Origin: an uncultured Sunxiuqinia sp.
Lineage (GTDB): Bacteria > Bacteroidota > Bacteroidia > Bacteroidales > Prolixibacteraceae
Length of the DNA: 64,000 nucleotides
Assembly: GCF_947495665.1 (NCBI RefSeq)
Contig: NZ_CANLZV010000002.1
Location: forward strand, 496,001-560,000
Direction: 5' to 3'
A model generated the notes under the pieces. The model saw only the letters and a list, made by a program, of their open reading frames with translations, had not been told where the DNA came from and made no database searches. The position numbers and the translations under genes are program-made. Shown piece by piece: positions 3,887-7,348 of the stretch (positions are counted from its first letter, which is position 1; each line of letters opens with the position of its first letter).

Positions 3887-3976
3887 AGTTCTTATTTTTT
3901 GCCAAAAATAGCAGTTTTTAAACGATAAACACTCAATAACAACGAAGGAAGGACTTGGTTTAATTTCTACTCACGA

Positions 3977-4145
3977 GGCGATGCCCATATGTTCATGCTA
4001 TCAGCCCGTTGGGCTTTTAAGATTACATTCATTCAATTGCTCCTCCTTCATCTCGCACCAAAGGTGCATTCGCAAACAGGACAGGGCAACGCCCTGTTGC
4101 CGGATCATCAGCCAATCCTACAGCCCTGAAAGGGCCTGAGCCTAA
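3977..4145. repeat. Composite REP-like palindromic repeat, copy 1
   Basis: Five short hairpins, mostly with three-base loops, follow each other: GGC-gat-GCC (3977-3985), AGCCC-gtt-GGGCT (4003-4015), GCACC-aaa-GGTGC (4055-4067), ACAGGGC-aac-GCCCTGT (4081-4097) and GCCCT-gaa-AGGGC (4123-4135). The unit ends at the stop codon of the transposase gene. Three related copies lie on the other side of that gene. Confidence 0.8.
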
Positions 4146-4598
4146 CTAATCCCACACATAACGCTCATCATATTCAACCTGGTACTTTTTTAAGAATGCC
4201 TGAAACTCTTCTTGAAATGTCTTTGTGCGGTGATGCTCTTCTTGGAAATTGATGTAGTTTGTAACAACATCAACTTCTGTGGGATTAACAGAAAAAGCAC
4301 CGTAACCATTCTGCCAATAAAAGTTTTCGTATCGCTGTCCTTGTGTTTTCATCCATTTCGAGGAGTTCTTTTTCAGAGCTTCAATTAACTCGGCTTGAGA
4401 AATTTTTCGAGATAAAGTACATAGAATATGGACATGATCATTCGTTCCTCCTACACGAACAGGGTTACATGCCAATCCTTTACAAATACCGCCAAGGTAT
4501 TCAAAGAGTTTAGTTTGAATGTCTTTATCAATTAACTTCGCGCGTTGTTTGGTGCTGAAGGTGATGTGTAGATATACTTTGGATAATGATTGTGGCAT
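4146..4598 (-). CDS. tnpA: IS200-like / REP-associated tyrosine transposase
   Basis: The 150-residue protein is a Y1 (HUH) transposase of the TnpA/RAYT type, which cuts and rejoins single-stranded DNA at hairpins. The HUH motif is visible as NDHVHIL near residue 54, and the catalytic Tyr is probably in VVTNYINFQEEHH near residue 115. Length is standard. The gene is directly flanked by GCCCT/AGGGC hairpins in inverted orientation at both ends (4123-4135 and 4631-4643), the arrangement expected for a transposase acting on REP hairpins. The first 27 codons are duplicated at 4807-4886. Confidence 0.88.
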   Translation of the reverse strand: MPQSLSKVYLHITFSTKQRAKLIDKDIQTKLFEYLGGICKGLACNPVRVGGTNDHVHILCTLSRKISQAELIEALKKNSSKWMKTQGQRYENFYWQNGYGAFSVNPTEVDVVTNYINFQEEHHRTKTFQEEFQAFLKKYQVEYDERYVWD

Positions 4599-4630
4599 AG
4601 TTTACTCGTTTTGGTGAGACAATCGCTGTT

Positions 4631-4800
4631 GCCCTTTCAGGGCGTTATTTCATTGTGTAACCTGTGTTCATAGGGCGGTGCCCTATGCTCATGCTATAAG
4701 CCCGTTGGGCTTTTAAGACAACTTGTTTTCACAAGGTTATTTCGTTCTTTTTCCCGCGCCAAAGGTGCATTCGCAAACAGGACAGGGCAACGCTCTCTTG
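4631..4800. repeat. Composite REP-like repeat, copy 2
   Basis: Hairpins in order are GCCCT-ttc-AGGGC (4631-4643), ATAGGGC-ggt-GCCCTAT (about 4670-4686), AGCCC-gtt-GGGCT, the CAAAGGTGC element and ACAGGGC-aac-GC with a degraded right arm. The first hairpin is the reverse complement of the last hairpin of copy 1, so the transposase gene is bracketed by inverted elements. Confidence 0.75.
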
Positions 4801-4806
4801 TCTGGG

Positions 4807-4886
4807 ATGTCTTTATCAATTAGCTTCTCGCGTTGTTTGGTGCTAAAGGTGATGTGTAGATACACTTTGGATAATGATTGTGGCAT
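4807..4886 (-). pseudogene. 5' fragment of the transposase gene
   Basis: Reading from 4886 leftwards gives ATG and 27 codons (MPQSLSKVYLHITFSTKQRE and the next few residues) nearly identical to the start of the intact transposase, after which homology ends at the duplication boundary. It is a by-product of the 288-bp tandem duplication and is not expected to be functional. Confidence 0.85.
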
Positions 4887-4918
4887 AGTTTACTCGTTTT
4901 GGTGAGACAATCGCTTTT

Positions 4919-5134
4919 GCCCTTTCAGGGCGTTATTTCATAGTGTAACCTGTATTCATAGGGCGGATGCCCTAGGCTGATGCTATAAGCCCGTTGGGCT
5001 TTTAAGATAATTTGTTTTCACAAGGTTATTTCATTCTTTTTTCCGCGCCAAAGATGCATCCGCATCAGGACAGGGCATCGCCCTGTTGTCAGAGTATTCT
5101 CCAAACCAGTAGCCTTGAAAGGGCGTGAGCCTAA
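4919..5134. repeat. Composite REP-like repeat, copy 3
   Basis: This copy lies in the second tandem unit and extends past it. GCCCT-ttc-AGGGC (4919-4931) opens it, followed by the TAGGGCggatGCCCTA, AGCCC-gtt-GGGCT and ACAGGGCatcGCCCTGT hairpins and, near 5112-5124, a diverged GCCTT-gaa-AGGGC element with the closing GTGAGCCTAA. Confidence 0.75.
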
Positions 5135-5162
5135 TGGGAACTCCATATTCATTGGTCAATCT

Positions 5163-5326
5163 CCTAGGTCAACGCGATCAACCCGTTGGACTTTTTAAAA
5201 TTATACAATATTTAGATAAATCCCTTTTCCTCCCGCACCGAAGGTGCATTCGCAAACAGGACAGGGCAACGCCCTGTTGCCGGAGCATCAGCCAGACCTA
5301 TAGCCCTGAAGGGGCGTAAGCCTAAC
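5163..5326. repeat. Composite REP-like repeat, copy 4
   Basis: A diverged copy has CAACCCGTTGGAC, GCACCgaaGGTGC, ACAGGGC-aac-GCCCTGT, and a CCCTgaaGGGGC element closing with GTAAGCCTAAC. Its right half is almost identical to copy 1. It runs into the 3' end of the DUF5808-like gene, overlapping the stop codon. Confidence 0.75.
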
Positions 5327-5543
5327 CAGTATAAGTTCCGAGCAAAATGATAATGACAATTAAGGCGATTAGTGCCGGCCAGGCGTACGGGTTGCCAAAG
5401 TTGAAGGTCCACCCCATCCAACGGCTGTATTTGGGAACAATCAGTCGTGGATCTTTGCGGTTAACGTAAAAAGGACCTTTCCAGTTGTTGAGATCCCGAC
5501 TCATCGCATCCAGTAGTTCTTTTTCCAATTTCCTTCTTTTCAT
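5322..5543 (-). CDS. Small DUF5808-like membrane protein
   Basis: This 73-residue protein has a charged N-terminus, then WKGPFYVNRKDPRLIVPK and GWTFNFGNP, which resemble the DUF5808 signature, and one C-terminal membrane segment (about residues 52-70, WPALIALIVIIILLG). DUF5808 proteins have no established function. It is likely a single-pass inner-membrane protein with its N-terminal domain in the cytoplasm. It stands alone between REP repeats and a non-coding region, and its stop codon overlaps the end of a REP copy. Confidence 0.75.
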   Translation of the reverse strand: MKRRKLEKELLDAMSRDLNNWKGPFYVNRKDPRLIVPKYSRWMGWTFNFGNPYAWPALIALIVIIILLGTYTG

Positions 5544-6054
5544 CTGTTCATTGATTTAATGATTAGCTTCTGCCCTTTTCAGGTCTAATAGTTTTTTTTC
5601 TAACCACCAATCCTTAAACGCCAAATTTCTAACTATTATAGCTATGCAAATTACTCAATTACTCCTAAAATTTCGCGATTAACCCACACCAAAGATGCAA
5701 TAGTAGGTAATGTTTATCCCAATAAATATATGCATACAATCCGCAAAGGATCAAACTAAAAAGCCAATATGAATCTACCCAAATCCTCACAATAAAAGTT
5801 CGATTCAATCATTTTTAGGTGTTCTTGTTTAAGTTTTGCGATGCTAAAAGACTGAAAAACATCCCAAATTTGCAGCTAAAATTACTCTCTCAGACTGTCA
5901 ATACTGATAACCCTCCCCCGCAAATTGTTGATAACCACACTGAAAACCAACAGGAAAACACCATAAAAGCCGCATCTGTCAGGCTATCTGAGACTTACCA
6001 ACAATTGTTAATATCATCGGTTAATACATAGTTAATTTAAAACACTCAGAACTA
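5544..6054. other. AT-rich non-coding region
   Basis: No convincing gene or strong structure is seen in these 511 bases. Short open frames lack family resemblance or start signals. The region leads into the promoter of the structured RNA candidate. Confidence 0.5.
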
Positions 6055-6086
6055 TTGACTTATATTTGATTTTCGCTGTACATTTG
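6055..6086 (+). promoter_or_regulatory. Bacteroidota-type promoter of the structured RNA
   Basis: The -7 element TACATTTG (6079-6086) fits TAnnTTTG exactly, and TTG at 6055-6057 lies 21 bases upstream as a -33 element. A second TATATTTG at 6061-6068 is also present. Transcription would begin near 6091-6093, just before the hairpin-rich segment. Confidence 0.55.
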
Positions 6087-6091
6087 ATAGT

Positions 6092-6632
6092 ATCAGGTGA
6101 GCGATAAAAGACTGCTCCGAAGATGTGGAGGCGACAAAAGCTCTTAGTTGAGTCAGCGTCAAATCATCCAAACCTTCGGGTTTGCGCATCCAGAGAGCCG
6201 AAGTTTAAGCAACCAAAGATCCGTTCTTTACATGCTTGATTAAAACGAAAAACGATTGCTTCGGCATTCCCAAGTCGTTTTAGGTTTGAAGGCTGTTTTC
6301 GAAAAGGAATTCGTTCCCCGAAGAAAGCAGGCAATGGTGGGACTTCGGTTCCAAAACCACTGCCAAATGAGCAAATTGATGATCGTAAGACCAGCATTTC
6401 TCAGGAGCCATCAAAAACTTCGTCCGGTAAGACAAGCTTCGGCTTGGTCGAGCGGACAGCCGGAAGGCCTGCTGTAACAAGTATTGCCGGAACGCCAAGG
6501 GCTGAAACCCGAATCCTGGATTCATGGATCAGCCAGTCAAAATAACAGTAGCCTGACATGAACGACGATTTCGATCGTCAAGTAGTGAATGGGAGCTATT
6601 CATACCGAGTGGTTCCCATTGTTGTTTTTAGG
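6092..6632 (+). ncRNA. Candidate structured non-coding RNA rich in UUCG tetraloops
   Basis: The + strand contains six hairpins closed by UUCG: CAAACC/GGTTTG (6169-6184); AAAACGA/TCGTTTT enclosing TGC-UUCG-GCA (6249-6281); GGAA-UUCG-TTCC (6306-6317); a three-tier stem GGCA/TGCC, TGGT/ACCA, GGGAC/GTTCC (6330-6364); GTCCG/CGGAC enclosing GAC-AAGC-UUCG-GCTT-GTC (6422-6457); and GACGAT-UUCG-ATCGTC (6564-6579). Four have the extra-stable C(UUCG)G form, which exists only on this strand. GCC-GGAA-GGC (6459-6468) adds a GNRA loop. A promoter precedes and a terminator follows, giving an RNA of about 540 nt. It does not show RNase P, tmRNA, 6S or SRP signatures. No coding frame resembles a protein family. 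Ends are approximate. Confidence 0.65.
6588..6630 (+). terminator. Terminator of the structured RNA
   Basis: AATGGGA (6588-6594) pairs with TCCCATT (6614-6620), with a small ACC-gagt-GGT helix inside the loop, followed by the T-rich GTTGTTTTTA. The T run is on the + strand, so it ends rightward transcription rather than the regulator gene on the minus strand. Confidence 0.6.
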
Positions 6633-6652
6633 CCTTTCAGAAAATCAGTCGC

Positions 6653-7348
6653 TTATCCCCGTAAACTAAGCTCTTCAAGGGTGTCACTTTTCAATAAAAT
6701 GATGTCTTTGTCCCGTAAATCAATCAATCCATCCTTTTCGTAGCTTTTTAGTAGTTTAACAGCGCTTTCTGTTGAAATGCCGGCAAAGTCGGCCAAATCC
6801 TTTCGCGAAAGCAATTGAAAGATTTCAGGATTCTGAGCCTTAAAACCATTCAGGTACAACAGGGCTTCGGCTAAGCGACCATTCATTTGTTTGTAAAGCA
6901 CATTCCGGATGGTTGCATACATACCGGAAGCTTGTTCGCAAAACCGCTGGATAAAGCTGGAAGCAAAAAGACCATTTTGACTGACAACTTTGGCAATAGC
7001 CTGTTTTTCGACCAGGAAAGCCATACAATCGGTCAGAGCAACCGTGGAGTAATCAAAGGTATTTTTCACAAAAGCAGAAGAAAGGCCGACAAATTCACCT
7101 TTTTGAATGATTTTCAGGTTGTATACCTTGTTGTTTTCGCCTTCCAGGTACTGACGAGCCAGACCATCGGCAATGAACAACACGTAAGAGGCAAAAGCCC
7201 CCTGCTTGGTCAGGTTATCGCCTTTTCGAAAGTGAACCTGTGTTTTGCTGGCTCTTACCAACTCTATTTCATTGGGCTCAAGCACTTGAAAACAGGGCGC
7301 ATTGATATCGCAAATAAAATTCTCATCGGTCTCCAAAATCGTTTTCAT
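6653..7348 (-). CDS. Crp/Fnr family transcriptional regulator
   Basis: The 231-residue protein has an N-terminal cyclic-nucleotide-binding fold (about 20-140, with FRKGDNLTKQGAFASYVLFI) and a C-terminal helix-turn-helix (LLSRKDLADFAGISTESAVKLLKSYEKDGLI, about 180-210). No cluster of four Cys as in Fe-S Fnr is seen, so it is probably not an Fnr-type oxygen sensor by that mechanism. It is divergent from the thioredoxin and rhodanese flavoprotein genes with a 155-bp shared upstream region, and regulation of those genes is a reasonable inference. Ligand unknown. Confidence 0.85.
   Translation of the reverse strand: MKTILETDENFICDINAPCFQVLEPNEIELVRASKTQVHFRKGDNLTKQGAFASYVLFIADGLARQYLEGENNKVYNLKIIQKGEFVGLSSAFVKNTFDYSTVALTDCMAFLVEKQAIAKVVSQNGLFASSFIQRFCEQASGMYATIRNVLYKQMNGRLAEALLYLNGFKAQNPEIFQLLSRKDLADFAGISTESAVKLLKSYEKDGLIDLRDKDIILLKSDTLEELSLRG

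Follow-up and report, generated by a model that had tools for sequence, protein, structure and literature searches.

A large structured noncoding RNA gene of the Prolixibacteraceae with a conserved promoter, terminator and predicted operator

The RNA gene and its surroundings

We analysed a 64,000-nucleotide stretch of DNA from an uncultured Sunxiuqinia sp., referred to here as the window. Positions 6088-6629 of its + strand almost certainly hold the gene of a structured RNA of about 540 nt that has had no description so far. The predicted transcript runs from about 6088-6092, a start inferred from the -7 box, to 6629. An earlier note, made from the letters of the window, had the location right and set the limits slightly too generously. 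The features of the unit are as follows.

5995-6014, no strand assigned: predicted operator, a palindrome reading TTACCAACAATTGTTAATAT (TTATTAACAATTGTTAATAA as consensus of the family), some 92 bp upstream of the RNA
6020-6037, + strand: direct half-sites resembling GTTNATA at 6020 and 6031, that is +25 and +36 from the palindrome start, read from the column frequencies of 106 homologs
6055-6060, + strand: -33/-35-like TTGACT found by scan, its TTG conserved in the alignment by eye
6079-6086, + strand: -7 box TACATTTG (TAnnTTTG), with 7-8 of 8 positions matching in 102 of 107 homologs
6088-6629, + strand: structured RNA, identified by homology, covariation and fold, its start estimated from the -7 box
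6588-6629, + strand: intrinsic terminator hairpin and T tract, with a 14-bp stem at 6588-6620 and covarying pairs 6590-6618 and 6600-6608

The conserved unit, operator included, spans about 5992-6634, and in two loci (L205, L206) the flanks on both sides are unrelated to those of the window. In a comparison with five loci from the window's genus, conservation sets in at 5984-5994 each time and ends at 6628-6634 in L202, L205 and L206. In L203 and L204 it continues into the Crp/Fnr region, over which L202 has a separate match.

The promoter and terminator that the earlier note had seen at either end of the hairpin cluster are both conserved. A control stretch farther upstream matched the -7 box in 7 of 107 homologs, as against the 102 of 107 at 6079-6086. 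We take TAnnTTTG to be the Bacteroidota promoter type. At the 3' end, a generic terminator scan found one terminator where shuffles gave 0.9, which is chance level. Since the scan by itself is not above chance, the evidence for the terminator is the conservation of its hairpin in 111 homologs, nearly all of which form most of the other stem pairs as well.

Compared with its shuffles, the + strand has the better fold (z -3.9, none of 100 being equally good). The effect is less marked on the - strand (z -2.5, 1 of 100 equally good). We found no conserved reading frame. The four ORFs of the window are open in 5, 4, 11 and 39 of the 111 homologs, and in 68-75 of the 111 the length of the aligned ORF stretch is not divisible by three, which bears out the earlier view of the region as noncoding. 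The longest open run per homolog was 99 aa compared with 81 aa in shuffles; because the frames are unconserved, we do not read these longer runs as coding.

A convergent Crp/Fnr gene ends at 6653, about 20 bp from the end of the RNA, as had been pointed out before. Of 41 contexts, four show this adjacency: the window and three congeners. At two more loci a Crp-like gene lies 3-5 kb away. Because the arrangement is so restricted, we regard this neighbour as incidental and uninformative on function. Between genera the flanking genes differ while operator, promoter, RNA and terminator remain together. Judging ORFs by eye, a citrate synthase-like gene lies upstream of the RNA in Mangrovibacterium and in five loci from the window's genus (though not in the window), polyamine-pathway-like genes adjoin the RNA in the Draconibacterium group, and response regulators do so in a few others. 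Since the neighbours change while the unit stays whole, we consider this a stand-alone and probably trans-acting RNA gene.

The upstream region of the RNA adjoins a 73-aa DUF5808-domain protein (5322-5543, - strand). Positions 3958-5326 hold five repeat families of 49-160 nt with two to three copies each, and within them lies an IS200-like Y1 transposase ORF (4146-4598, - strand). Repeats and transposase together look like a REP/RAYT-type array.

A covarying fold

The earlier note had proposed testing homologs for covarying stems. We aligned 111 non-redundant full-length homologs with MAFFT, drawn from 134 full-length matches by leaving out 7 longer than 640 nt and then 16 with more than 95% identity to a row already kept. 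Each row needed a 3' end recognised by pattern, which 76 of 162 5' stretches lacked; many of these 76 are chance matches of a 17-base pattern, but R1 matches such as L063 and L083 are also among them. Covariation was scored with an R-scape-like G-test with average product correction. The null consisted of 60 alignments in which Fitch substitutions were re-dealt along a FastTree tree.

We found that 33 of the 101 pairs of the RNAalifold consensus covary at E<0.05 against this tree-based null, in a test whose small P-values depend on an exponential tail fit. Similar counts were obtained when the structure was folded without a covariation term (33 of 108) or was built with only a quarter of the alignment rows (32 of 107). 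For one of the 33 pairs, 6426-6453, no more than 63 of 111 rows have standard pairing. When all pairs of the 111 rows were tested, seven reached E<0.05 and all seven fell within consensus stems; an earlier all-pairs test of 71 sequences had given only three significant pairs.

To avoid circularity we also folded the window sequence alone, using no alignment. In its minimum-energy fold 19 of 152 testable pairs (of 173) covary. When the partners were slid by -3, -2, -1, +1, +2 or +3 positions, the number of covarying pairs was 0, 0, 2, 0, 0 and 0. Projected on the alignment, this window-only fold pairs in 69% of cells, compared with 31-43% for the slid versions. A separate 3' alignment of 24 sequences has changes on both sides in 20 of 31 predicted pairs. 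In its covarying multi-branched fold and its lack of a conserved frame the RNA fits the broad kind of large structured noncoding RNAs, and the conserved promoter and terminator, with neighbours that vary, suggest a transcription unit of its own. The parts of the fold, all on the + strand, are listed below.

6093-6098, 6101-6106 and 6110-6113: 5' strand of P1, pairing with 6535-6556; 111 of 111 rows are paired at 6093-6097
6097-6552 and 6111-6537: pairs of P1 that covary in the tree-based test
Within 6093-6113: near-invariant internal loop of P1, GAUAAAAG opposite AAUAAC
6535-6556: 3' strand of P1, with a highly conserved core AAUAACMGUAGCCUGRCA
6114-6117/6195-6198: P2, from the consensus fold
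6122-6127/6185-6190: P3, five covarying pairs
6169-6174/6179-6184: P4 hairpin, four covarying pairs, capped by C(UUCG)G in the window
Within 6122-6198: stretch CUUAGUUG, conserved in the alignment
6200-6204/6417-6421: P5, which encloses the variable central domain; 6201-6420 covaries
6205-6210/6234-6240: P6, three covarying pairs
6383-6390: GNRA hairpin (C-GUAA-G) within the P5 domain; 6383-6390 and 6384-6389 covary
6422-6426/6453-6457 and 6431-6434/6446-6449: P8/P9 arm, six significant pairs, with a UUCG cap in the window
6459-6495: P10 arm with a conserved GUAAcA loop, four covarying pairs; 6459-6495 has E=4.6e-6 within the structure
6500-6504/6530-6534: P11, at the central junction, paired in 67 of 109 to 110 of 110 rows
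6564-6579: UUCG hairpin GACGAU-UUCG-AUCGUC; 6567-6576 and 6569-6574 covary

Within the structure, pair 6432-6448 of the P8/P9 arm reaches E=3.4e-7, and none of the P11 pairs is significant in the covariation test. P1 abuts P2 and P11 with zero unpaired bases between them. A long-range pair, 6199-6499, is C-G in 79 rows and U-A in 26, which is not significant in the all-pairs test (E 0.15); this pair would close a junction with P5, P8 and P10. The central domain (about 6205-6417) is variable and poorly aligned and its structure uncertain, as is the consensus pairing called P7 (6315-6317/6414-6416).

The six UUCG-capped stems of the earlier note, four of them in the C(UUCG)G form, were all located. 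Stems of at least 3 bp cap TTCG at 6175, 6260, 6310, 6344, 6438 and 6570, with 6, 3, 4, 6, 5 and 6 pairs respectively when G-T is allowed, and the C(UUCG)G form occurs at 6175, 6260, 6344 and 6438. None of 2000 dinucleotide-preserving shuffles reached the observed counts (means of 0.19 for all such stems and 0.017 for the C(UUCG)G form). On the opposite strand there is a single stem of this kind. The GNRA-capped hairpin reported alongside them is also there, and both of its pairs covary. Across the homologs, UUCG stems number 1.76 on average (range 0-6). P4, P9 and similar stems are retained, and have covarying pairs, although homologs average fewer than two UUCG stems. The UUCG loops are mostly local embellishment and not a defining trait of the RNA.

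Distribution and the upstream operator

By blastn we found matches in 23 of 61 relatives, the own genome counted. A covariance model built from the 5' 121 nt of the RNA was positive in 113 of 140 genomes of the family Prolixibacteraceae, and in 87 of the 103 with a completeness of 90% or more and a contamination of 5% or less. Two or more matches were present in 35 of the 113. This is an environmental family with cultured species among the carriers, namely Draconibacterium orientale, Sunxiuqinia indica and Mangrovibacterium marinum; further carriers include D. sediminis, D. mangrovi, D. aestuarii, Maribellus maritimus and Tangfeifania diversioriginum. A scan of contigs with the 17-base pattern gave at least 117 stretches, of which at least 54 (55 matches) reach 70 bits or more with the model R1 and are taken as real.

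Outside the family the RNA is sparse. In an even sample of the order 18 of 344 genomes were positive, five of them the family's own and 13 others, some doubtful. Eight of the 13 hold full-length RNAs recognised by pattern, with 3' core and terminator (L192, L193, L223-L229), two (G392 and G357, at 104 and 51 bits) were not recovered by pattern, and for three (G234, G318 and G386) a score of about 29 bits leaves membership in doubt. Of 296 genomes sampled evenly from the phylum two were positive, the window's own and one with a doubtful match of 29 bits. That phylum-sample match (L201) and one in Flavobacterium (L038), at about 29 bits each and with no 3' end found by pattern, were rejected as members. 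Within the family, none of the four genomes of genus g12 (G017, G036, G124 and G125, two of them single-contig) has a match to the 5' model, which indicates that the RNA is not universally required.

In the RNA tree, seven of nine genera with at least two labelled tips form one pure clade, unlabelled tips (34 of 111) being allowed. Because the RNA tree tracks genera and the neighbours change between genera, the RNA looks like a vertically inherited stand-alone gene. Two members from other families of the order (L192 and L193, in G415 and G454) measure 406 and 513 nt by pattern; being shorter or diverged, they are useful for defining the minimal core. Tandem or nearby duplicates, about 0.8-2.3 kb apart, occur in L214, L217, L218 and L234, and in L218 (G012) only one RNA copy has a palindrome within one mismatch.

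The upstream palindromic operator is a new finding of this analysis. At least 16 of the 20 consensus positions are matched by 99 of 107 upstream regions; not one of 107 shuffled regions reaches this. With at most one mismatch allowed, the extended palindrome is present in 38 of 61 family genomes. After merging matches by hand we count 49 distinct places, 43 of which lie 91-105 nt upstream of the RNA. The operator of the window's genus has diverged and escapes this count (none in any of 6 genomes), and the own genome has a single exact match to a relaxed form of the palindrome. Elsewhere in the own genome (L310, 1482-1521) a relaxed palindrome with one mismatch lies 19 bp before a gene for an HU-HIG DNA-binding protein (Pfam PF18291). 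The six places without the RNA comprise three beside mraZ, one before lepA (L330) and two without a clear target. An unfiltered search near these six found no convincing diverged RNA, the best score being 14.9 bits.

We then consider which protein might bind the operator. Each arm of the palindrome, TTATYAACA, is similar to the DnaA box, TTATCCACA, and DnaA as ligand was supported neither by dnaA loci nor by genome-wide box counts. The 3.5-kb dnaA loci of five genomes have at most one box-like site apiece. Against a reversed control TTATCCACA occurs 65 vs 24 times in G000, 57 vs 49 in G035 and 43 vs 39 in G151, and there is no tight cluster of it among the matches listed. Paired half-sites are commoner than the reversed control in G035 (8 vs 3) and G119 (6 vs 1) and not commoner in G000 and G121; G151 has 2 vs 1. 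A dif site was tentatively set aside on the varying distances between RNA and dnaA (single-contig genomes, by eye), a judgement that presumes oriC near dnaA. LexA was rejected because the Bacteroidetes motifs in the passages of PMC8565304 concerned, GGA-N5-TCC and CTAA-N5-TTAG, differ from the palindrome. Crp/Fnr was rejected as cognate regulator because, beyond the window, its gene adjoins the RNA in no more than three relatives.

The operator motif at mraZ is found in three genera (L332 1344-2020, L334 821-1387 and L335 757-1424). Pfam confirmed MraZ in all three loci and MraW in L334. The gene mraZ heads the division and cell-wall cluster. A regulator of the level of the RNA might therefore also control the mraZ cluster, with the RNA serving growth or division, a reading that we hold to be doubtful. 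If true, an operator common to the RNA and the division cluster would be the first functional handle. The link is weakened because all three mraZ palindromes also face a divergently oriented ORF, those of L334 and L335 being alike by eye. In L335 (G020) the divergent ORF is 95 bp and mraZ 192 bp from the site, and the composite operator scores 22.5 bits toward the divergent ORF vs 0.3 toward mraZ. Half-sites in the direction of mraZ, both in the same register, occur in only one of the three (G141, L334).

We scanned 3.8 million positions for the composite operator, on both strands of the fetched loci and the window; these loci were chosen by RNA, palindrome, 17-base pattern or as a few control genes, so that the counts are not a genome-wide estimate. 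Among distinct composite sites above 18 bits, the RNA follows in 148 of 167. Of the sites that no RNA start follows, the mraZ promoter of G141 scores best, at 37.2 bits. The mraZ link concerns 3 of 61 genomes, one of which (G096) has no RNA match with the 5' model. In the own genome neither mraZ nor such a site beside it was located. The fuller proposal, a core Prolixibacteraceae RNA machine unrelated to known RNAs, tied by its operator to the mraZ cluster and helping to coordinate growth or cell division, seems to us unlikely as a whole. As an observation on its own, the presence of the motif, in three genera, in the region that separates mraZ from a divergent ORF suggests an uncharacterised regulator of this region in Bacteroidota.

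A folded, probably trans-acting RNA and its relation to known RNAs

Taken together, the locus is most probably a stand-alone gene for a trans-acting, large structured noncoding RNA, a new 'ornate' class typical of Prolixibacteraceae. On the sequence evidence, the RNA is preceded by a Bacteroidota-type promoter with a palindromic operator upstream, and its end is an intrinsic terminator. Between them the long helix P1 brings both ends together and encloses a compact core of tightly packed junctions, with the arms P2-P4, P5-P6, P8-P9, P10 and P11; the internal loops are highly conserved. The RNA probably acts in trans as a folded molecule; it would then be a protein-binding scaffold or an RNA machine, as opposed to a messenger, leader or simple antisense RNA. 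Its consensus structure and its operator make the function of the RNA open to testing.

Alternatively, a long regulatory RNA could base-pair with mRNAs through the unpaired AGCGAUAAAAG, CUUAGUUG and GUAACA, the structure protecting and presenting these seeds. The highly conserved stretches are indeed largely unpaired in the consensus, and the RNA has its own promoter and terminator. However, it is far larger and more folded than base-pairing small RNAs typically are, and conservation is highest in the internal loops of the closing helix and in the junctions, as tertiary structure predicts. We consider base-pairing improbable, if the strongest of the alternatives.

A mobile or selfish element, for instance one derived from a prophage, an origin reported for ROOL and GOLLD, might be suspected from the 35 of 113 genomes with two or more matches and from the neighbours that vary between genera. 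This is very unlikely given that the RNA tree tracks genera and that blastn, which could miss distant copies, found no match in 50,697 phage records. Seven viral contigs contain the 17-base pattern. The best of them (L243, 32.6 bits) looks protein-coding by eye, its motif arising by chance from the peptide K-Q-V-S-D-K, and viral carriage was rejected.

The proposal of a stand-alone folded RNA also had to be compared with known families. The earlier note had suggested a search against Rfam; cmscan with the 4227 families of Rfam 15 at gathering thresholds gave no match in the 64-kb window. At E up to 10 there were three weak matches around the RNA, the best with E 0.81; a search of 19 loci with homologs, at E up to 2, gave a single match (E 0.92). 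The signatures of RNase P and tmRNA are absent, as the note had said: the single RNase P match of the genome (RF00010, 242.6 bits) is at G000:C2:41361-41747 and not at the RNA, and ARAGORN found no tRNA or tmRNA in the window, nor did Rfam find a tmRNA there. Rfam has no 6S match at the RNA, and 6S-flavo (RF01685) none in the own genome, in a search whose control likewise gave none anywhere. In size and complexity the RNA is comparable to OLE, ROOL and GOLLD. Even so, the missing Rfam match, the RNase P elsewhere and the lack of tRNA or tmRNA in the window make a diverged OLE, GOLLD, ROOL, raiA, HEARO or housekeeping RNA (RNase P, tmRNA, 6S or SRP) highly improbable. A cis-acting leader or 3' element of an adjoining gene, which the gene about 20 bp away in the window could suggest, is barely credible beside a conserved terminator, a convergent next gene and neighbours that vary around an intact unit.

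The homologs, covariation against a phylogeny-aware null, the conserved promoter and terminator and the absence from Rfam thus uphold the original idea of an undescribed structured RNA of about 540 nt. In the literature we recognised no description of it, although supplements and large sets of microbiome RNA candidates might list it. Words beginning with 'Bacteroid' do not occur in the main text, as distinct from other parts, of two surveys of novel bacterial RNAs (PMC11109978, PMC8632094).

Few conserved bacterial RNAs are this large, and RNase P, OLE, ROOL and GOLLD have proved to be ribozymes or unusual RNA assemblies. The RNA studied here resembles OLE as a large stand-alone RNA with an elaborate fold, and differs in having no Rfam match, apart from the weak ones given above, in the window or in the 19 loci with homologs. 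Passages of PMC12286853 refer to Rfam profiles of OLE, GOLLD and ROOL, and describe ROOL and GOLLD as large 'ornate' RNAs of unassigned function, encoded in phages and prophages and often near tRNA islands. In contrast, our RNA tracks genera, has no phage match by blastn and has no tRNA in the window. The raiA motif and HEARO are likewise structured bacterial noncoding RNAs but shorter, with examples of 205 nt and 343 nt in the same passages (PMC12286853). Our RNA has no Rfam match to either, and none of the six neighbouring ORFs in the window encodes an HNH nuclease. 6S-flavo RNA (RF01685) is similar as a noncoding RNA described in Bacteroidetes, according to the part of PMC2864571 that deals with it; its model has 108 positions, compared with about 540 nt here. 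The RNA therefore resembles the large ornate RNAs only in size and architecture and is a member of no family tested.
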